A stretch of 51,977 nucleotides of DNA from NCBI GenBank assembly GCA_022841625.1, contig JALHRD010000035.1, forward strand, positions 1 through 51,977, given 5' to 3'. The notes beneath the pieces are model-generated. The model ran no database searches. It had not been told where the DNA came from and saw only the letters and a list, made by a program, of their open reading frames with translations. Every line of letters begins with the position of its first letter. Within the stretch, counting starts at the first letter, position 1. This document shows, piece by piece, positions 19,487 to 51,977 of the stretch. Source of the DNA: Xanthobacteraceae bacterium. GTDB taxonomy: Bacteria; Pseudomonadota; Alphaproteobacteria; Rhizobiales; Xanthobacteraceae. Made by a program: the position numbers and the translations under genes.

Positions 19487-19550
19487 TCGCCTCTCTCCAG
19501 GTGTAGGGCGAATTCAGTACAAGCGGATCGCGGTAGCCGCAAGGGCGGCT

Positions 19551-19711
19551 GGTGCCCCGTTTCCGAAGTTCGTGATACGTCGCAGCAACCACTGACACGA
19601 ACTTCGGAAACCAAGGGGCACCAGCAACTCCATGAATCCAATGCCGCTTTTCGATTTGAAGTTCCTAACCGAATTTGCAGCAAGCAGCGTAGGAACTTCA
19701 AATCGGCGGCA
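19551..19711 (+). repeat. Paired-hairpin repeat, copy A
   Basis: Two long hairpins joined by a short linker. Hairpin 1 (19551-19622) has outer arms GGTGCCCC/GGGGCACC and inner arms TTCCGAAGTTCGTG/CACGAACTTCGGAA, with GCAGCAACC in the loop. The linker begins AGCAACTCCATGAATC. Hairpin 2 (19642-19711) has outer arms TGCCGC/GCGGCA and inner arms ATTTGAAGTTCCTA/TAGGAACTTCAAAT, with TTTGCAGCAA in the loop. Two further copies lie at 25434-25594 and 26405-26560. Type of element unknown. Confidence 0.9.
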
Positions 19712-19790
19712 CTGGCTCGCCCGCCGAATTTTGCCTAAGCTTGCCAAAACCGGCCAAGGATAGGCCGGCAAAGTTAATGGGAGGCTCGCA

Positions 19791-21731
19791 ATGCGCGATT
19801 GGCTGGCAGGATTGGCGCTGATTGCCGGATTATCGGGGCTGGTTGACCAGGCGTTCGCCAAGGTCCTCTGGTTCGAGGTGGTCCGGATCGAGCCCGCCTA
19901 TGAGGGCCGCGTGTTCGGAGCGGTCGGCAGCTATGAGCGGGTAATTGCCCGCGTCACCGTCGCGCTGTCGCCGAACGATCCGCGCAACGCCATCATTGTC
20001 GATCTCGATCGCGCGCCACGCAACGCCCAGGGCTTGGTGGAAGCGGTCGCCGAGGTCGAAATCCTGCGCCCGAGCGACCCGACCCGCGGCAACCGCCGGC
20101 TGCTCTACGACGTCGTTAATCGCGGCAATCAGCGCGCACTCACACATTTCAATGACGCGCCGACCAACAATGATTTCTCAAAGGCCGCCGCCGCCGGCAA
20201 CGGCTTCCTGATGAACCGCGGCTACACTTATGTGATCAGCGGCTGGCAGGGTGACCTCACCCCGCGCGCCGCCTGGAAAACCATCACAGTCCCGGTGGTG
20301 CCGAATGTCACCGGCGTTTCCCGCGAAGAATTCATCTTCGACCATGCGCGCAACCCAGCGGTCGCAACGCTGACATATCCGGCCGCCGATCTCGATCCGG
20401 CAAAGGCACGGCTGACGGTGCGTCAACGCGAGAGCGATCCGCGAGTCACGCCCGCCGATCTCCGCTTCAGCTTCGATGGGCCGGACAAAATATCGATCGT
20501 GCGGCCCGCCGGCTTCGACGCTGCCGCGATCTATGAGCTGATCTATCAGGCCAGGGATCCAAAGGTGCTGGGCATGGGCTTCGCGGCCACGCGCGACATC
20601 ATCTCGTTCCTGCGGCGCGACAATGCCGACCAAACCGGCGCGGCAAACCCACTTGCCGGCCGCATCGACTACGCCTTCGCCATGGGTGTGTCGCAAAGCG
20701 GGCGGTTCCTGCATGATTTTCTGTATCTCGGTTTTAACGATGACGAAGCCGGCCGCATGGTGTTCGACGGGCTGATGCCCCACATCGCCGCCGCCAAGAC
20801 AATGTTCACCAACTACCGTTTCGCGCAGCCCGGCCGCAACATGCAGGAACATGCCGACTCGCTTTATCCGGGCACCGCGTTTCCGTTCAGCTATCCGGTA
20901 ACGACCGACCCGATCACCGGCCGCACTGACGGCTGGCTGGCGCGCTGCCTCGCGAGCAAGAGCTGTCCGAAGATCATGCAGACCGACACCGATCTGGAAT
21001 TCTACCAGTCGTTCGGATCGCTGGTGACCACCGACACCAATGGCGCGCCGCTCACCATGCCCGATAATGTACGGCTGTATTATTTCGCAAGCCTCCAGCA
21101 TTCCACGACCGCGAACGCAAAACCACAACTGCACCCGCACTGCACTTACCCGACCAATCCGCTCTATGCCGGACCGGTGTTGCGCGCGTTGCTCATCGCC
21201 ATGGAAGCCTGGACCGCCGACGGCAAAGCGCCGCCGACCAGCCGCTATCCGAGCCGCGCCGACGGAACGCTGGTGACGCCCACCGAAAACGCGGCGAACT
21301 TTCCAAATATCCCCGGCTTCCGTTACACCGGCCTGGTGCATCGGCCGACCGTGGTGGACCACGGCGCCATGCCGCCAGTCAGAAAGACCGCCTATCCGGT
21401 GTTCGTGCCCAAGACCGATGCCGACGGCAACGCCATCGCCGGCATCCGGCTGCCGACGCTGGTTGCGCCGGTCGCGACCCATCTCGGTTGGAACCTGCGC
21501 AAGACCGGACTTGCCGAAGGCGCCCTGTGCGGCAATTTCGGATCGATGCTGCCGTTCGCTAAGACCCGCGACGAGCGCATCAAGTCGAACGATCCACGGC
21601 TGTCGCTGGAAGAGCGCTACCCGACCGCCGCCACGCGCGCGGCCTTGATCGAAAAAGCCGCACGGCAATTGGTGCAAGACCGACTACTGCTGGAGGACGA
21701 TATCGCCGGCTATTTGCAACAGACCAATTGA
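19791..21731 (+). CDS. Exported alpha/beta hydrolase domain protein
   Basis: 646 residues with an N-terminal hydrophobic signal (about residues 3-23, ending DQAFAKV). It resembles a large family of roughly 600-residue proteins annotated as alpha/beta hydrolase domain-containing. The probable nucleophile elbow is MGVSQSGRFLHDFL (G-x-S-x-S-G), and a late GTPHHG-like element is not seen. The N-terminal 150 residues, including LLYDVVNRGNQRALTHFND and YTYVISGWQGD, form a family-specific beta domain. Substrate unknown; exported esterase or carbohydrate hydrolase is possible. It stands alone on the plus strand among rib genes, so it is probably an insertion. Confidence 0.75.
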   Translation: MRDWLAGLALIAGLSGLVDQAFAKVLWFEVVRIEPAYEGRVFGAVGSYERVIARVTVALSPNDPRNAIIVDLDRAPRNAQGLVEAVAEVEILRPSDPTRGNRRLLYDVVNRGNQRALTHFNDAPTNNDFSKAAAAGNGFLMNRGYTYVISGWQGDLTPRAAWKTITVPVVPNVTGVSREEFIFDHARNPAVATLTYPAADLDPAKARLTVRQRESDPRVTPADLRFSFDGPDKISIVRPAGFDAAAIYELIYQARDPKVLGMGFAATRDIISFLRRDNADQTGAANPLAGRIDYAFAMGVSQSGRFLHDFLYLGFNDDEAGRMVFDGLMPHIAAAKTMFTNYRFAQPGRNMQEHADSLYPGTAFPFSYPVTTDPITGRTDGWLARCLASKSCPKIMQTDTDLEFYQSFGSLVTTDTNGAPLTMPDNVRLYYFASLQHSTTANAKPQLHPHCTYPTNPLYAGPVLRALLIAMEAWTADGKAPPTSRYPSRADGTLVTPTENAANFPNIPGFRYTGLVHRPTVVDHGAMPPVRKTAYPVFVPKTDADGNAIAGIRLPTLVAPVATHLGWNLRKTGLAEGALCGNFGSMLPFAKTRDERIKSNDPRLSLEERYPTAATRAALIEKAARQLVQDRLLLEDDIAGYLQQTN

Positions 21732-21818
21732 CGCCGGCATGCGCGAGACGCGCGTGGTCGGATTCTAACAGTCGCATCCCGCGCAAGCCGCAAAAGGCTA
21801 GCGAATGTCAAATCCACT

Positions 21819-21935
21819 CTACCAGAGCGTGGACTCATTGACGCGCAGCCGTAAGCGAATTGACGCGCGTTGGATGAATGCGAGGTGGTTGGCCGCGCAT
21901 TTATCATAGCGCGTTGCGACTCGACGGACTGCGGT
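21819..21935 (-). pseudogene. IS5-family transposase relic (C-terminus only)
   Basis: The minus frame reads RRVATRYDKCAANHLAFIQR then ASIRLRLRVNEST before a stop. This is the characteristic C-terminal end of IS5-family transposases (ATRYDK-AANYLAF, ASIR-WLRVNEST). Nothing upstream in frame is transposase, so only about 39 codons remain. The surrounding spacer 21732-22091 holds no other gene; 21936-22076 looks like further degraded intergenic repeat DNA. Confidence 0.75.
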
Positions 21936-22091
21936 CGCGGTGCACCCGAAAGCGGACCTATTATGCTCACTGCGAGTTTTGTCGGTTATGACCCTGAACG
22001 GACTCGGGGCCAAATGGCAGCACAAGTAATGCCCGGGACAAACCAGCGGCTTCAGTGACAAACGATGGGGTACCATCCGCTCCAGCTACGA

Positions 22092-23072
22092 CTACGGTTG
22101 ACTAACGATGGGCCACCATAGCTTCTGCTCGCTATCAATGAACTGAGCCAGCTCTGCCCCGAACAACGGCCGGAACGGGGTGCCGATCTCCTTTACCCGC
22201 TTCTGGACCTCGGGTGCCTCGAGTGCCTTTCGCAGGTCATCGGCGATCCGACGTGTGACCGCCTCTGGCGTCCCCTTGGGTGCGCTCAACACATTCCACC
22301 CGATTACGCGCAGCCCAGGCACAGTCTCGGCCGCCGTGGGCAACTCGGGAAAGATGGGCACGCGCTCGGATGTCATGACGGCGATCGGCTTCAGGTCGCC
22401 CGAATCGATCCAACCCTTGAGGGCGGGCAGGGCATCGATGACCACGTGGACGCGGCCGCCCATGATGTCCTGGATCGCCGCATTCGTACCGCCGGTCGAA
22501 TAGGGCACGATCGTCATTGGCGCACTCGATTGCGCGACAATCAGCTTGGCCGCGAGATGCGTTAGCGATCCTGCAGGATTGGTGCCGATCACGAGCTTCT
22601 CCGGCTCCTTCTTCGCCCTGGCGATCAGTTCGGCAAGGCTGGTGACGCCAAGCTTCGGCGACACGGCGATCACCATTCCTTCGGACACCATGGTGCCGAT
22701 CGGAATGAGATCGCGATTGATGTCAAAGGGCAGCTTGTTCTCCTGCGCTGGCAGGATCGTGAAGATCGATGCCGGGCCGGCGAGTAGCGTATAACCGTCC
22801 GGAGCTGCCGCAAGGACGGCCCGCGTGCCGATGACACCGCCACCGCCCGGGCGGTTCTCCACCACGACCTGCTGGCCAGCAAACTTCGTGAGGGCCTCGG
22901 CCACAATGCGAACACGAATATCGGGGGACGAGCCGGACGGCAGCGGCAAGACGATCTTGATGGGGCGCGAGGGGAATTTGTCCTGGACTGACTGCGCAAG
23001 CGCCGAGCAACCAAGCGTGGCAAATGTGGCGCCGAGTGCCGTCGTGGCGATCAGAAGAGCGCGTCGGTTCAT
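22092..23072 (-). CDS. TTT-4: Bug-family tripartite tricarboxylate receptor protein
   Basis: 326 residues from ATG 23070-23072, where a signal peptide MNRRALLIATTALG begins; the frame extends 12 residues further. Motifs: RPIKIVLPLPSGSSPDIRVR, VVVENRPGGGGVIGTRA and TIVPYSTGGTNAAIQDIMGG. Classical Bug subgroup. It lies 47 bp downstream of the lipocalin-like gene on the same strand, both facing away from a LysR gene, so the LysR protein probably controls both in response to the transported compound. Confidence 0.92.
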   Translation of the reverse strand: MNRRALLIATTALGATFATLGCSALAQSVQDKFPSRPIKIVLPLPSGSSPDIRVRIVAEALTKFAGQQVVVENRPGGGGVIGTRAVLAAAPDGYTLLAGPASIFTILPAQENKLPFDINRDLIPIGTMVSEGMVIAVSPKLGVTSLAELIARAKKEPEKLVIGTNPAGSLTHLAAKLIVAQSSAPMTIVPYSTGGTNAAIQDIMGGRVHVVIDALPALKGWIDSGDLKPIAVMTSERVPIFPELPTAAETVPGLRVIGWNVLSAPKGTPEAVTRRIADDLRKALEAPEVQKRVKEIGTPFRPLFGAELAQFIDSEQKLWWPIVSQP

Positions 23073-23119
23073 CGTTGTCTTCCGTTGCTTTCGAGACCAG
23101 ACTCCCAACTGGTGTGCGG

Positions 23120-23629
23120 CTACATGGCTCGCTTCATCACTACTTCAACTTTCCCACCGGTGCCCGCTGGGTTGCTGAGCCTCAGCTCATCCCCCGCTAC
23201 AGCGATGGAGCGTGCCGAGTCCGTCCCCGCCAAGTTTGGGAACATGTTGCCCTCGGTGCGCAGCGTGAGAATCATGCTCGCCTCATCGACTAACCAGGTG
23301 CCAAAGTGAGCGACGGTTCCCCTCACTACTGCCGTGTTTTCCTCTGGAGTGCCCCCCAAACGGTTGTTGGATTTGAACTTGGGAACGTCGGATCGCGTCA
23401 GCACTTGAACATATCGCCCACTAACATCGAAGATAAGGATGCCTTTCGGATTGGCACCAAAGAGCGACCGCTTGGAGCCATCCGGAGCAATGCTGTCCGA
23501 GGAGACAAGCGTCCAGATCCCGGTGACCTGCTCCTTGAGAGACTTTTGTTGGGCGACGGTGCTGCCTGGCAGCAAGGCAAGCCCCAACGCGGTGGTCGCA
23601 AACAGACTGAAGATGTTACGTCGATTCAT
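23120..23629 (-). CDS. Exported lipocalin-like domain protein
   Basis: 169 residues with a signal peptide ending PGSTVAQQ. The rest matches the lipocalin-like domain family (EQVTGIWTLVSSDSIAPDGS, GILIFDVSGRYVQVL, VAHFGTWLVDE, LRLSNPA), a small beta-barrel seen in many bacterial secreted proteins and polyketide clusters. It may bind a small hydrophobic molecule. The first gene of a probable two-gene operon with TTT-4, divergent from the LysR regulator. Confidence 0.8.
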   Translation of the reverse strand: MNRRNIFSLFATTALGLALLPGSTVAQQKSLKEQVTGIWTLVSSDSIAPDGSKRSLFGANPKGILIFDVSGRYVQVLTRSDVPKFKSNNRLGGTPEENTAVVRGTVAHFGTWLVDEASMILTLRTEGNMFPNLAGTDSARSIAVAGDELRLSNPAGTGGKVEVVMKRAM

Positions 23630-23701
23630 TGTGTCGCTCCCTGATCATTGATGCTGCGCGCATACGCGCAACCAGACCTACCCGTCATACCCCGAAGCCA
23701 C

Positions 23702-23716
23702 ATATTCAGATAATAT
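23702..23716. promoter_or_regulatory. Candidate LysR operator in the divergent spacer
   Basis: ATATTCAGATAATAT is a perfect interrupted palindrome (5-bp arms, 5-bp spacer) and fits the T-N11-A core of LysR-type sites. It sits 35 bp before the LysR start and 73 bp before the lipocalin-like start, in a locally AT-rich stretch with promoter-like TATAAG (23733-23738). Confidence 0.5.
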
Positions 23717-23750
23717 GGAAGTGTGATACTGTTATAAGTGTAGGGAATGG

Positions 23751-24695
23751 ATGTCAGCCATGCCGTGGAATGATCGTGTCCGCCGCCGCCTACGACTGCG
23801 CGATCTCGATATCCTGATGGCCGTCGTCAACGCAGGAAGCATGACCAAAGCAGCCACGCTCTTCAATATGACCCAGCCTGCCGTCACGAAAGTGATCGCC
23901 GATCTCGAGCAGACCTTGGGCGCCCGTCTGCTCAACCGTTCCAGGCGCGGCGTCGAGCCCACGCCCCACGGCCTTGCACTGGTGAAGCGCGGTACTGCCG
24001 TCTTCGATGAGTTGCGGCAGGGCGTTCAAGACCTCGACTTTCTCTCCGACCCGACAGTGGGAGAGCTCCGCATTGGCTGCACAGAGGTGGCAGCCTCTGC
24101 CATCGTCTGGCCGGTCCTCGACCGCCTGACGCAGAAATATCCGCGGATGGTCTTTCATGTCGTCGCGGCCAGCTCGCCGGGGATGCATCGCGACCTTTTG
24201 GAGCGAAAGTTCGAGCTGGCATTGTCGCGGGTCGCGGTTCCAAACCCGGACGAGCACACGGAAATCCTGTTTCAGGATCGCATGGTGGTGGCCACCGGGG
24301 TGCAGAACCCGCTGACGCGCCGCCGCAAGATCGCACTGGCCGATCTTGCCGATCAGCCGTGGCTTCTGCCATCCGATAGCATGTTCGCCGCGGCGGTAGC
24401 CGGCAGCTTCCGCGCATCGGGGCTCGCGCCACCGCAAATGACCGTGTCGACGTCGTCGATCAACCTGCGAAACGAGCTTTGGGCGACCGGCCGCTTCGTG
24501 ACAGTACTTCCCGGCTTTGCGCTTCGGCTGCCGCGCCGCCATCCCCTATTGCGCGCCCTCCCGGTGGATCTTGCCAACGCGCAGCAGCCGGTTGCGATCC
24601 GAACCTTGAAGAACCGCCAACTTAGTCCCCTCGCGGAGATGTTTTGCGAGCGGGTGCGCACCATTATCAAACCGCTGGCAAGAACCGTAGTCTGA
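23751..24695 (+). CDS. LysR-family transcriptional regulator
   Basis: 314 residues. N-terminal winged helix-turn-helix LRDLDILMAVVNAGSMTKAA, then TLFNMTQPAVTKVIADLEQT and the LNRSRRGVEPTPHG wing. The C-terminal half is the periplasmic-binding-fold effector domain (VGELRIGCTEVAASAIVWPV, FHVVAASSPGMHRDLLERKF). An alternative start at 23760 would remove three residues. It is divergent from the lipocalin-like/TTT-4 pair with a palindromic operator between, so it probably activates that pair with the transported ligand as effector. Confidence 0.93.
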   Translation: MSAMPWNDRVRRRLRLRDLDILMAVVNAGSMTKAATLFNMTQPAVTKVIADLEQTLGARLLNRSRRGVEPTPHGLALVKRGTAVFDELRQGVQDLDFLSDPTVGELRIGCTEVAASAIVWPVLDRLTQKYPRMVFHVVAASSPGMHRDLLERKFELALSRVAVPNPDEHTEILFQDRMVVATGVQNPLTRRRKIALADLADQPWLLPSDSMFAAAVAGSFRASGLAPPQMTVSTSSINLRNELWATGRFVTVLPGFALRLPRRHPLLRALPVDLANAQQPVAIRTLKNRQLSPLAEMFCERVRTIIKPLARTVV

Positions 24696-24737
24696 CGCTG
24701 AAGACGTCAGGTCTTGGCCCAAAGCGGCGGTTTTCCA

Positions 24738-24776
24738 ATGTCCGCTTTTCTACCGCTTCTGGGGTTAAGCGGACAT
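24738..24776. repeat. Hairpin with ATGTCCGCTT arms
   Basis: Arms ATGTCCGCTT (24738-24747) and AAGCGGACAT (24767-24776) form a 10-bp stem between the convergent ends of the LysR gene and ribE. The sequence type recurs in Bradyrhizobium-like intergenic DNA (recalled, not searched). It could serve as a bidirectional transcription end. Confidence 0.55.
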
Positions 24777-24826
24777 GGCGAATTTATGAATACACGGCCT
24801 CGCCAGACGAAACCGACGTCCGACCC

Positions 24827-25432
24827 TTAGCGCGGCTCCATCAGCCGCGCCGCGTAGCGCGCCATCAGATCGACTTCCAGATTGAGCGCATCGCCGGCTG
24901 TTAGCGCACCCAGTGTGGTGACCTTCAGCGTGTGCGGAATAATCAGCACGGTGAAGATATCGCCATCGACCGCATTCACCGTCAGCGACACGCCATCGAG
25001 TGTCACCGACCCTTTTGCCGCGATGAAGCGAGATAGCGCGTGCGGCGCACGCAAAGTCAACCGCGCCATTTCGGTCAGATCCTCGCGATGAACCAGAGCG
25101 GCAAGCCCGTCGGTATGTCCGGCAACGATATGGCCGCCGAGCTCATCGCCGACTTTCATGGCGCGCTCCAGATTGACCTTGGTGCCGTGCCGCCACTGCC
25201 CAACCGTGGTCAGACGCAAGGTTTCGGCGGCGGCATCGATCGAGAACCAGGTCCGGCCGTCGTCTTCACCAATCGCAACCACGGTCAGGCACACGCCGGA
25301 ACAAGCAATCGACGCGCCCTCGACGATCGACGCACGCGGATAGCTGCACGCGATCTTGAGCCGGTGCAGTTCGTCGCCGCGCGGACGCACCGCGACCACC
25401 TCGCCGATATCGGTTACGATGCCAGTGAACAT
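24827..25432 (-). CDS. ribE: Riboflavin synthase
   Basis: 201 residues made of two similar lumazine-binding halves: FTGIVTDIGEVVAVRPRGDE at the N-terminus and TDGLAALVHREDLTEMARLT with KGSVTLDGVSLTVNAVDGD in the second half. It dismutates two lumazines to riboflavin. The start codon (25430-25432) is two bases from the hairpin of repeat copy B, so no normal Shine-Dalgarno site is free; the nearest is GGGAC inside the hairpin arm. ribD lies 1.85 kb upstream with a hydrolase and a methyltransferase inserted between. Confidence 0.96.
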   Translation of the reverse strand: MFTGIVTDIGEVVAVRPRGDELHRLKIACSYPRASIVEGASIACSGVCLTVVAIGEDDGRTWFSIDAAAETLRLTTVGQWRHGTKVNLERAMKVGDELGGHIVAGHTDGLAALVHREDLTEMARLTLRAPHALSRFIAAKGSVTLDGVSLTVNAVDGDIFTVLIIPHTLKVTTLGALTAGDALNLEVDLMARYAARLMEPR

Positions 25433-25433
25433 G

Positions 25434-25594
25434 CTAGTGTCCCGATTCCGAAGTTCGTATCATTTTGCAGCACCCCCGTTTACGAACTTCAGAATCGAAG
25501 GACACTAGCAACTCATTGAGTCTAGTGTGGCTTTGGTTCAGAAGTTCGCTACCGATCCAGCCGCAATGTATAGCGAACTTCTGAACCGCCACAC
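25434..25594 (+). repeat. Paired-hairpin repeat, copy B
   Basis: Same architecture as copy A but diverged. Hairpin 1 (25434-25508) has outer arms CTAGTGTCC/GGACACTAG and inner arms CGAAGTTCGTA/TACGAACTTC, loop with GCAGCACCC. The linker is CAACTCATTGAGTC. Hairpin 2 (25525-25594) has outer GTGTGGC/GCCACAC and inner GGTTCAGAAGTTCGCTA/TAGCGAACTTCTGAACC. It fills the gap between the hydrolase stop (25601) and the ribE start (25432). Confidence 0.9.
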
Positions 25595-25600
25595 CAGCCC

Positions 25601-26389
25601 TCACAATGCCGGCATCAGTTGACGCGATTGCAGAAACTCAATCACCAGGCGATCGAACCCGGCCGGATCTTCCAGACAGCAGGCATGCCCGGTACCGGGC
25701 AACACTTTATGAATGCCGCCCGGCACCAAGCTCGCGGTTTTGCGCCCCGCCGGCAGCGAATGATCGTGTTCGCCATTGATCACCAGGGTCGGCACTTTCA
25801 TGCTGCCGAGACGATCGGTTGTATCGGTGTGGTTGCCGGCCATAAACACTTGTGCAATCGCCTCACCCGCAAGACGCGGCTCGCGTTCGACCCACATATT
25901 CAGAAGATGCCTGCCCAACGGGCTGTCGGCAAAGGCCGGCGCAACCAATTCGCGCAAATGCTTAATGTGATAGGCGCCGAGATCCGTGCGATAGCCGTCA
26001 ATACGGCCCTGGTAGCGCGCGCTTGAGCCGCTATTGCCGCCGACCAGGACCACCGCGTCAAACAGCTGCGGATGATCAAGCGCCAATAACAGCGCAATCG
26101 AGGAGCCAACGCTGCAACCGCCCAACACCGCGCGCGCAATTCCACAGGCCCGCATGACGCCGACCACGTCGTCGCACATGTCCTTCAGCGAATAGGGCTC
26201 AGTCACTTTGGTGGACCGCCCATAGCCGCGAATATCGATCCCGATCACCTTGAACCAGGTCGAGAAATGCGCGCTCTGATACATCCAGAGATCATGGTCG
26301 AACGGATTGGCGTGGATCAGCACCATGGCCGGGCCGTCGCCCTTGACCTCGTACCAGATGTCGATCCCATTCACGCGGCAAGCCGGCAT
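25601..26389 (-). CDS. Alpha/beta hydrolase
   Basis: 262 residues from ATG 26387-26389 with GAGG six bases upstream; a longer frame (to 26461) only reads into repeat copy C. A compact alpha/beta hydrolase: oxyanion region MVLIHANPFDHDLW, nucleophile elbow VLGGCSVGSSIALLLALD (Ser in G-C-S-V-G), acid Asp in VINGEHDHSLPAGR and His in LPGTGHACCLEDP. Likely an esterase, lactonase (3-oxoadipate enol-lactonase-like) or haloperoxidase-type enzyme. It is flanked by repeat copies B and C, so it may have entered the rib run with them. Confidence 0.85.
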   Translation of the reverse strand: MPACRVNGIDIWYEVKGDGPAMVLIHANPFDHDLWMYQSAHFSTWFKVIGIDIRGYGRSTKVTEPYSLKDMCDDVVGVMRACGIARAVLGGCSVGSSIALLLALDHPQLFDAVVLVGGNSGSSARYQGRIDGYRTDLGAYHIKHLRELVAPAFADSPLGRHLLNMWVEREPRLAGEAIAQVFMAGNHTDTTDRLGSMKVPTLVINGEHDHSLPAGRKTASLVPGGIHKVLPGTGHACCLEDPAGFDRLVIEFLQSRQLMPAL

Positions 26390-26404
26390 CGCAACCTCAC
26401 GCCA

Positions 26405-26560
26405 GTGCCGCCGATTTGAAGTTCCTACAGCAGTTGCCGCAAACGCGATTAGGAACTTCAAATCGAAAAGCGACCCTGGACACAGTCACGTGCCCGTTTG
26501 CTTCCGAAGTTCGTGTCGGTGGGTGCTGCAACATATCACGAACTTCGGAAGCCGGGCACG
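26405..26560 (-). repeat. Paired-hairpin repeat, copy C (opposite orientation)
   Basis: On the minus strand the order is hairpin 1 (26490-26560, arms GTGCCCG/CGGGCAC outer and CTTCCGAAGTTCGTG/CACGAACTTCGGAAG inner, loop with GCAGCACCC), a linker, then hairpin 2 (26405-26474, inner arms GATTTGAAGTTCCTA/TAGGAACTTCAAATC, loop with TTTGCGGCAA). It is very close to copy A, including the GGCGGCACTGGC flank. Hairpin 1 overlaps the end of the methyltransferase gene. Confidence 0.9.
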
Positions 26561-27237
26561 AGGGCCTTGAGCACCGCCGTCGGGTGCTTGTGCCAAACCA
26601 GATCGACCGCGGTGAAGCCCGCGACCCTCATGGAGTGTTGGTGCAGCGGCACGCCGCCAAAATTATCGAAATGATCGTAGTCGAGAAAGCAGCCGCCGGG
26701 CTTGAGCAGCCGGCGCACCGCTTCGTAGCAATCGGCCATCGCCGCCAGATCCTTGAGATTGTGAATCGCAATGCCCGAAACCACGAGGTCGAACGGCCCG
26801 CCGACTTGCCGTGACCAAGCCGGATCCTGCAGATCGCATTGCACGTAAGCGATTGCCCGATCGTGGCTTGCGAACCGTTCGCGCGCGCGTGCCAACATCG
26901 GCGCGGAGAAATCTTGCACGGTCAACCGCGCGGCTGGAAACGCATCGAGCAGCGCCTCGGCGACCGCCCCCGCACCGCCGCCGACATCCAAAACATCGAT
27001 CGCGACATCGGCGGGAAACGGCACTGCCGCGACCAGCGCTTCAAGGATCGGCTCGCGTTCGGCGATGCGCCGCGCATCGCGCGCAATCCAATCGGCGGCA
27101 TAGTGCTCGGAATGCCAATCGTGGTCGTGGTGGTGATGGTGGTCGTCACCATGGTGGTGGTGATCGTGGTGATGGTGGTCGTGACCATGATGATGGTCGT
27201 GGCCATGAGAATGGCCATCTTTGGGGTCGTGCGACAT
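26536..27237 (-). CDS. Class I SAM methyltransferase with a histidine-rich N-terminus
   Basis: 233 residues from ATG 27235-27237 (GAGGAG upstream). Residues 1-45 contain 24 histidines, in runs split by Asp and Gly; this would bind Zn, Ni or Cu. The rest is a UbiE-like methyltransferase: motif I VAIDVLDVGGGAGAVAEALL, motif II LTVQDFSAPMLARARERF, then DLVVSGIAIHNLKDL and LLKPGGCFLDYDHFD. The last seven residues and the stop codon are encoded by repeat copy C, so the natural C-terminus has been replaced. It lies 45 bp downstream of ribD. Substrate unknown. Confidence 0.85.
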   Translation of the reverse strand: MSHDPKDGHSHGHDHHHGHDHHHHDHHHHGDDHHHHHDHDWHSEHYAADWIARDARRIAEREPILEALVAAVPFPADVAIDVLDVGGGAGAVAEALLDAFPAARLTVQDFSAPMLARARERFASHDRAIAYVQCDLQDPAWSRQVGGPFDLVVSGIAIHNLKDLAAMADCYEAVRRLLKPGGCFLDYDHFDNFGGVPLHQHSMRVAGFTAVDLVWHKHPTAVLKALVPGFRSS

Positions 27238-51707: not shown

Positions 51708-51863
51708 CGGGTGGTGCTGGAGGCAAGCTTGCTTTTGCGGACAAAGCGAAAAGCATTCTTGGCGACCGCATCCGGCCCTGCCACGCCGCCGCTGCAGGGC
51801 TGCGCCCCGCAACGACGCCGCGCCCCGACGGATGGACGGCATGCCCCAATAGAAAAATCACTA

Positions 51864-51977
51864 GAGCGTTATGAGTTTAGCCTGAATCGATTTGGGATTC
51901 CCAAATCAGAACGGTTCTGATTCAACATGCTGGCTGGGATGGAGGCCAGCATGGATGGGCAAACCTTATTCTGTCGA
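51864..51977 (+). mobile_element. Left end of an IS630-family insertion sequence
   Basis: From GAGCGTTATGAGTTTAGCCT the sequence resembles an IS630 end, with two nested palindromes (GATTTGGGATTCCCAAATC and CAGAACGGTTCTG). The element would begin after the TA at 51862-51863, matching the TA target of this family. The transposase start follows at 51955 and the element leaves the window. Confidence 0.75.
51955..51977 (+). CDS. IS630-family transposase, N-terminal fragment
   Basis: ATG 51955 reads MGKPYSV before the window ends, the usual opening of IS630-family transposases (MGKPYSxDLRERV). A GGAGG ribosome site lies at about 51940-51944. Cut by the window edge. Confidence 0.75.

Follow-up and report, generated by a model that had tools for sequence, protein, structure and literature searches.

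A CTAG-footed double-hairpin repeat of the Rhizobiales, probably a MITE-like mobile element with two arms

The Caulobacter CcrM-associated intergenic repeats (CIR) are described as intergenic units of ~110 bp with two arms, a linker, TA termini, and GANTC at the loop (PMC2229807). In Brucella, Bru-RS1 and Bru-RS2 are described as palindromic intergenic repeats of 103-105 bp (PMC3163539, PMC2267715); Bru-RS1 is a landing site of the insertion sequence (IS) IS711 at YTAR, with TA duplication (PMC3163539). Here we describe a repeat of two hairpins that occurs in three copies (A, B, and C) in a 51,977-nt stretch of DNA from a Xanthobacteraceae bacterium (assembly GCA_022841625.1, contig JALHRD010000035.1, positions 1 to 51,977), referred to throughout as the window. 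The two-arm layout of CIR is found in the window copies and in 21 of 22 copies from distant genomes. The original prediction, made from the letters of the window, recognised no known family; this stands for Rfam, whose sole match to the window at gathering scores is a group II intron and not the element, but not for layout, as CIR is described with the same two arms. We found no exact match to a known IS, miniature inverted-repeat transposable element (MITE), or repetitive extragenic palindromic (REP)/REPIN family, several families being compared by description only. We conclude that the element is probably a non-autonomous, MITE-like mobile palindromic repeat with two arms. The group II intron match, which lies at 15-92 on the + strand, is above the Rfam gathering score.

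The copies span 19549-19715 (A, + strand), 25434-25597 (B, + strand), and 26402-26562 (C, - strand), at the places first predicted with slightly shifted ends. Their parts, and a remnant of a further subfamily (G), are as follows.

19549-19624, + strand: copy A hairpin 1, feet CTGG ... CCAG, 21-nt loop, 3-nt bulge on the linker side
19625-19637, + strand: copy A linker, 13 nt, CAACTCCATGAAT
19638-19715, + strand: copy A hairpin 2, inverted type, right foot CTGG
21799-21825, + strand: right-end remnant of the G subfamily, 27 nt, adjoining IS-like sequence (compared by eye with the G consensus)
25434-25508, + strand: copy B hairpin 1, feet CTAG ... CTAG
25509-25521, + strand: copy B linker, 13 nt, CAACTCATTGAGT, its end spanned by the GANTC site GAGTC
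25522-25597, + strand: copy B hairpin 2, left foot CTAG, right foot CCAG
26402-26479, - strand: copy C hairpin 2, feet CCAG ... CTGG
26480-26486, - strand: copy C linker, shortened to ~7 nt
26487-26562, - strand: copy C hairpin 1, left foot CTCG

Each copy folds into the paired hairpins that had been proposed, with DNA folding z-scores of -11.7 for A, -10.2 for B, and -10.4 for C; for each copy, none of 200 shuffles folded equally well. Hairpin 2 is the inverted form of hairpin 1, so that the element aligns with its own reverse complement, and both hairpins of the window copies carry their bulge towards the linker. The region of the G remnant gave only a weak match to the covariance model described below (21706-21826, E 0.002).

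The window genome (4.9 Mb in 71 contigs) has a RibE nearest (70-75%) to those of Hyphomicrobiales metagenome-assembled genomes, Pseudolabrys, and Rhodoplanes. Searches of this genome with copy A, copy B, and a third type returned at least 67, 76, and 86 pieces, respectively, with the best 40 of 120, 79, and 76 candidates scored; since scoring was confined to 40 candidates per own-genome search and to 14 per genome in the order-wide scan, all copy counts are lower bounds. In ~0.5 Mb fetched around the own-genome copies, we identified 136 non-overlapping matches (51 of subfamily A, 45 of G, and 40 of B), at least one of which is counted twice because loci L040 and L076 overlap. The aligned sets comprise full-length copies only, excluding those shortened or cut by contig ends: 36 G, 24 B, and 29 A copies, with mean column identities of 94, 83, and 75%, respectively (gap columns included). 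Copy B had been called a diverged copy. It is indeed distinct from A, but it is a member of a second subfamily of its own and not a decayed A copy.

The consensus is CTAG-hairpin-CTAG, a 13-nt linker starting with CAA, and again CTAG-hairpin-CTAG; it is ~165 nt long with hairpins of ~76 nt each and contains no gene, and most full copies measure ~161-171 nt. We refer to the CTAG tetranucleotides as feet. A few copies (L028, L030, L057, and L061) have a longer linker containing a repeat, and single-hairpin copies (for example L041, L067, L071, and L074) look like remnants of the full element. GANTC sites number 1.56 per copy in G, 3.58 in B, 0.76 in A, and 2.3 in the 22 distant copies, against a background of 0.32 per 168 nt. 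The recurrent GANTC columns lie in the hairpin 1 stem and at the linker end, with one B column (141) in the hairpin 2 loop region; among the distant copies, 15 of 22 have GANTC at position 11.

The element family is order-wide and present in many families of the order. Of 41 relatives, 15 matched copy B at E 0.001, and 11 of 25 genomes of the same family did so strongly (1e-20 or better). A covariance model (R1) built from 17 copies found, among the matches listed, at least 30 of 199 genomes of the order, representing at least 18 of 100 genera and at least 15 families, and every listed match covers model positions 1-168; further copies in relatives, on which the original prediction had staked its case, therefore exist. 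The one distant copy that departs from the two-hairpin layout (L300) is a single long hairpin. Eleven of the 22 have CTAG at all four feet, and their stem sequences differ widely. Plasmid relatives spanning the whole model occur in Aminobacter, Ochrobactrum, Rhizobium, and Bradyrhizobium; in the Bradyrhizobium one, hairpin 2 is shortened. A plasmid search using subfamily B gave no match. In the ribE region of 80 named relatives, one locus (L167) bears a copy, by profile and by model. The presence of three copies in the riboflavin region of the window probably calls for no special cause.

The suggestion that this might be a non-autonomous mobile element is supported by the dispersed subfamilies, nested insertions, empty orthologous sites, and the order-wide spread. 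Nested insertions at a CTAG foot include a G copy in a B copy (L034) and an A copy in a B copy (L033), and copy pairs with a common foot occur at L010, L018, and L055. A genome of the same genus (G001) is syntenic with the window region at ~80% identity and is empty at all three copy sites. The cleanest is the copy C site, where G001 reads CACG-CGAC-GGCC and the window reads CACG-CCAG, the element, and CGAG-GGCC; a near-target tetranucleotide is thus present at one end alone. At the copy A site both feet are CTGG and G001 has CCGG at the left junction, but with extra bases there; this junction would fit a target duplication. In a copy of another genome (G003), the left foot TTAG equals the empty-site sequence (with extra bases present) and the right foot is CTAG, which fits both a duplication and a one-sided exchange. 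Empty-site searches in further regions returned nested, blurred, or unalignable sites.

At 25432-25640, copy B lies between the ribE start codon and the apparent ancestral Shine-Dalgarno sequence: G001 has GAGG directly before the ATG, and the window has GTGAGGG beyond the far side of copy B. At 26536-26570, copy C alters the end of a methyltransferase gene, which ends KAVA in G001 and reads KALVPGFRSS in the window. The stop codon falls inside hairpin 1 of copy C, the last residues having been swapped for a few element codons; this is not a case of a TAG foot ending a gene.

Copies are located at CTAG or near it, and this tetranucleotide is otherwise rare in the DNA counted. Outside the elements, CTAG occurs 94 times in ~339 kb of fetched DNA against ~1160 predicted from composition, a ~12-fold depletion; in the window there are 18 against 178 expected. 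The counted set, 350,558 bases, was fetched around copies, so the share of CTAG inside elements is inflated. Copies spare coding sequence almost without exception. By a codon-position GC test, 1 of 85 copies interrupts coding, compared with 47.5% of 2751 positions drawn at random from these loci. A further 5 copies are flanked by coding sequence left and right but in different frames, 34 on a single side, and 45 on neither (4 of 89 copies near ends were left out). This test replaced one based on disruption of stop-free frames (88% of random sites, 43 of 84 copies), which was too lax in a GC-rich genome.

Where a gene does reach the element, it tends to end in the foot. We kept 306 of 338 sides from 169 copies in several genomes, dropping those near a locus end or with no readable foot, and a coding frame reaches the foot at 49 of them. 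At 35 of these 49 sides the TAG of the foot is the in-frame stop, where one third is expected by frame (binomial p 6e-8) and where other CTAGs provide the stop in 21 of 58 cases (Fisher p 4e-4). Eight of nine scanned proteins ending at a foot TAG reach the last C-terminal positions of a family model. The full-scoring models are ribosomal protein S2 and O-acetylhomoserine sulfhydrylase; those below the NCBIfam cut-off or from Pfam alone are BamB, an AmiC-like amidase, a carrier, GST, Dps, and LprI; the ninth protein has repeat matches only. A Bradyrhizobium gene for a sugar-binding protein has the foot TAG as its annotated stop codon in RefSeq. Most simply, copies would insert at CTAG and survive where genes are unharmed, a TAG stop codon being a harmless target because the inserted foot restores TAG.

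The outer arms of the copies differ in sequence yet stay complementary, as had been predicted. Among the 89 aligned copies, variant feet match as complements 8 times in hairpin 1 (1.7 expected) and 8 times in hairpin 2 (2.4 expected); by hand count, such feet are rarer in G (2/27) than in B and A together (14/47; Fisher p 0.04). Between subfamilies, double changes affect 28 of 51 pairs, with 126 double cells versus 7 one-sided, and 97.2% of cells are paired versus 83.2% in shuffles; slid controls gave 3 to 27 double cells. Within subfamilies, double cells also exceed those in shuffles (A, 33 vs 10.3; G, 8 vs 1.5; B, 8 vs 2.6). Single copies display how such changes arise. L060 has gained the complement of its bulge in the opposite arm; L020 has no bulge and its stem is now perfect, and L041 also is without one; in L196 (1466-1634), a G copy, the whole loop of hairpin 2 is reverse-complemented. 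Template switching between inverted repeats is described as leaving homogenised arms and inverted spacers (PMC8604942), and it has been proposed as a source of compensatory changes in RNA genes (PMC8794818). The filled and lost bulges and the inverted loop seen here suggest such switching from arm to arm. Because single copies display this correction, part of the covariation needs no selection. The statement that structure and not sequence is kept holds as an observation, with arm-to-arm DNA copying as part of its cause.

On these grounds, we prefer a mechanism in which the element would be moved in trans by a transposase attacking the TA within CTAG; alternatively, another enzyme could read the hairpin together with its foot. 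A foot landing in a TAG stop codon would restore the stop, and the arms might be kept complementary partly by templating one from the other during replication.

Several results weigh against this picture of trans-mobilisation and arm correction. Only one of the three empty sites is clean, the other two being blurred by ~20% divergence or extra bases. The original prediction had suggested looking for target duplications and for a transposase sharing the ends. For the former there is no signal, as identical variant left and right feet occur 3 times versus 2.3 expected in 89 copies, and a 4-bp direct target duplication, having no statistical support, was set aside; in this comparison a TA target is indistinguishable from the element ends, copy C speaks against a duplication, and copy A, with CTGG at either end, would be consistent with one. 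For the latter, no transposase with matching ends was found in searches of PF13358 and PF01797, nor was any transposase found to recur beside copies among the neighbouring open reading frames (ORFs). The per-side rate of amber stops is 11.4% at feet and 7.4% at other CTAGs, a difference that is not significant (p 0.12), so amber-stop placement may be passive. Within subfamilies, one-sided cells outnumber double cells (A, 49 vs 33; G, 31 vs 8; B, 12 vs 8; summed by hand), which indicates that copies decay and are corrected only occasionally. One slid control for G reaches 7 double cells versus 8 observed, and in B the 4 double-changed pairs are equalled in 62 of 500 shuffles, which sits poorly with a simple picture of correction. 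Selection on the hairpin may also act. Finally, in G the outer feet are off CTAG more often than the inner ones (27/72 vs 12/72, Fisher p 0.008), and this excess is absent in B (17/48 vs 15/48) and A (30/58 vs 27/58).

The pattern of feet in G bears on a second possibility, in which a recombinase recognises the hairpin as a structure, together with its loop, CTAG foot, and bulge on the linker side, and not sequence-specific terminal inverted repeats. A two-sided target duplication would not yield more variable outer feet, and these do not occur as direct repeats; the pattern therefore speaks for a structure-reading enzyme. Layout, linker length, and bulge side also persist across families despite stem sequence change, and the constancy of stem length and bulge over many families, in spite of divergent sequence, may reflect recognition of shape. 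However, we have no candidate enzyme, the variant feet could be mutations, the excess is confined to G, and shared ancestry with arm conversion would preserve layout equally. We hold this explanation to be possible but tentative. The feet could reflect either a TA-duplicating transposase followed by mutation or a one-sided exchange.

Covariation of this strength between subfamilies would ordinarily suggest a structured RNA, the other possibility raised in the original prediction, or an mRNA 3'-end element (a stabiliser, attenuator, or small RNA) selected for its fold, and a share of the copies lies directly after a stop codon. Since one arm may template the other, covariation alone is no proof of RNA function. 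Repaired bulges and an inverted loop reflect events in DNA, the copies are dispersed and nested as in mobile DNA, stems within subfamilies decay through single changes, and Rfam at gathering scores has no match to the element in the window. One-sided cells between subfamilies are few (7), which fits a DNA process but is also compatible with selection on RNA. Taken together, we judge an RNA element to be distinctly unlikely as the explanation of the family.

REPINs, inverted pairs of REP sequences moved by RAYT (Y1, HUH) tyrosine transposases, share with the element the inverted hairpin doublet and a tetranucleotide at the foot. The window genome has two Y1_Tnp matches, and either strand might serve. 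Nevertheless, neither of these two genes has a copy within the surrounding 3.3 kb, and a Y1 match is present in only 6 of the 11 family genomes with strong element matches (E 1e-20 or better). RAYT was rejected as the mobiliser: none of the 2 Y1 matches here and 17 in relatives is flanked by the element. Across these 19 loci, the sole element match at E 10 is a partial one at L248 (290-372), ~1.1 kb away. Moreover, the consensus feet are paired CTAGs at four ends and not an unpaired GTAG at one, and the units are of ~76 nt, not 20-40, so that we regard a REPIN as very unlikely. In G010, G018, and G020, the palindromes flanking RAYT-like genes are of other kinds; in relatives, REP-like palindromes of other sequence adjoin such genes on both sides (L246, L249, L250, and L254) or on one (L251 and L257).

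IS630 was likewise rejected as the mobiliser. Of the two PF13358 matches in the window genome (C12 and C17), C12 was read for its ends; it is the sole full-length match and lies in an element with other ends, inserted at a foot. IS family labels other than PF13358 are presumptive here. When 482 ORFs from 96 loci of this genome were clustered, four clusters spanned at least 3 loci. The largest comprises 31 ORFs in 20 of the 96 loci; of its 8 scanned members, 6 are TctC-type receptors. In two further clusters, the one member scanned is an ABC transporter and a thiamine pyrophosphate (TPP) enzyme, respectively. By eye, 89 ORFs from 30 loci of relatives added no transposase cluster.

Foreign end sequences of at least four recurrent kinds abut a foot in nine fetched loci (L020, L033, L035-L038, L040, L064, and L066), several at contig ends, and one kind belongs to the element with the PF13358 gene on C12. 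These ends would suit passive relics, palindromes targeted by ISs but immobile themselves and spread by recombination, yet the recent expansion of G at unrelated sites, the nested insertions of whole units, and the empty sites make this highly improbable. At 51861-51977, at the contig end, the window has a CTAG followed by an IS-like end identical to the insert in the element foot of L035.

A broader reading, which we put forward as speculative and would not expect to hold in full, is an order-wide class of mobile DNA in which the mobiliser reads the shape of a bulged hairpin on a CTAG foot and not its sequence, amber stop codons can be hit and restored, and stems are repaired by template switching, with CIR and Bru-RS perhaps as shorter members. 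Covariation is usually taken as proof of functional RNA. The many copies of different age in this family allow arm-to-arm copying, bulge repair, and loop inversion to be separated from selection. The element is also a testable case of a mobile element able to occupy an amber stop codon harmlessly, and it may link alphaproteobacterial palindromic repeats whose mode of movement was left open in PMC2229807.

No account of a double hairpin with CTAG feet was found in literature searches on CTAG palindromes, rhizobial repeats, and MITEs at stop codons, which did not extend to most subscription papers, the CIR and RIME originals among them. REPINs and BIMEs with RAYT resemble the element as extragenic mobile units built of an inverted palindrome doublet (PMC3116915, PMC3733652); they differ in a GTAG or CGTC tag that is unpaired and at one end, in their small units, and in the RAYT partner for GTAG, and the word CTAG is absent from the main text of PMC3733652. 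Br-REP1 and Br-REP2 of Bradyrhizobium are likewise palindromic and intergenic, with neighbouring palindromes, and by eye have a GATTCCG/CGGAATC stretch in common with the element (PMC5082802); the printed consensus is otherwise different by eye, and its main text does not mention CTAG. RUP/IS630-Spn1 and other TA-flanked MITEs are also short and non-autonomous, with TA termini and stem-loops (PMC2229807). The element shows the IS630/Tc1-type traits of TA at both ends, within its CTAG consensus feet, and nested insertions at CTAG, but unlike RUP-type MITEs it has two hairpins, no partner IS with the same ends was found, and there is no clear target duplication. Bru-RS repeats, from the same order, are palindromic and intergenic, and the foreign ends on the element's CTAG feet resemble the landing of IS711; at 103-105 bp they differ in length, and they were set beside the element by description only. 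CIR is the nearest known kind, again by description and not by sequence. Both have two long inverted-repeat arms and a linker, TA termini, GANTC sites, and an intergenic location in Alphaproteobacteria; the element differs from CIR in its length (~165 nt versus ~110), in having CTAG at four consensus feet, and in the place of GANTC, which is found within the stem and at the end of the linker instead of the terminal loop, except in B, where it lies partly at the loop.

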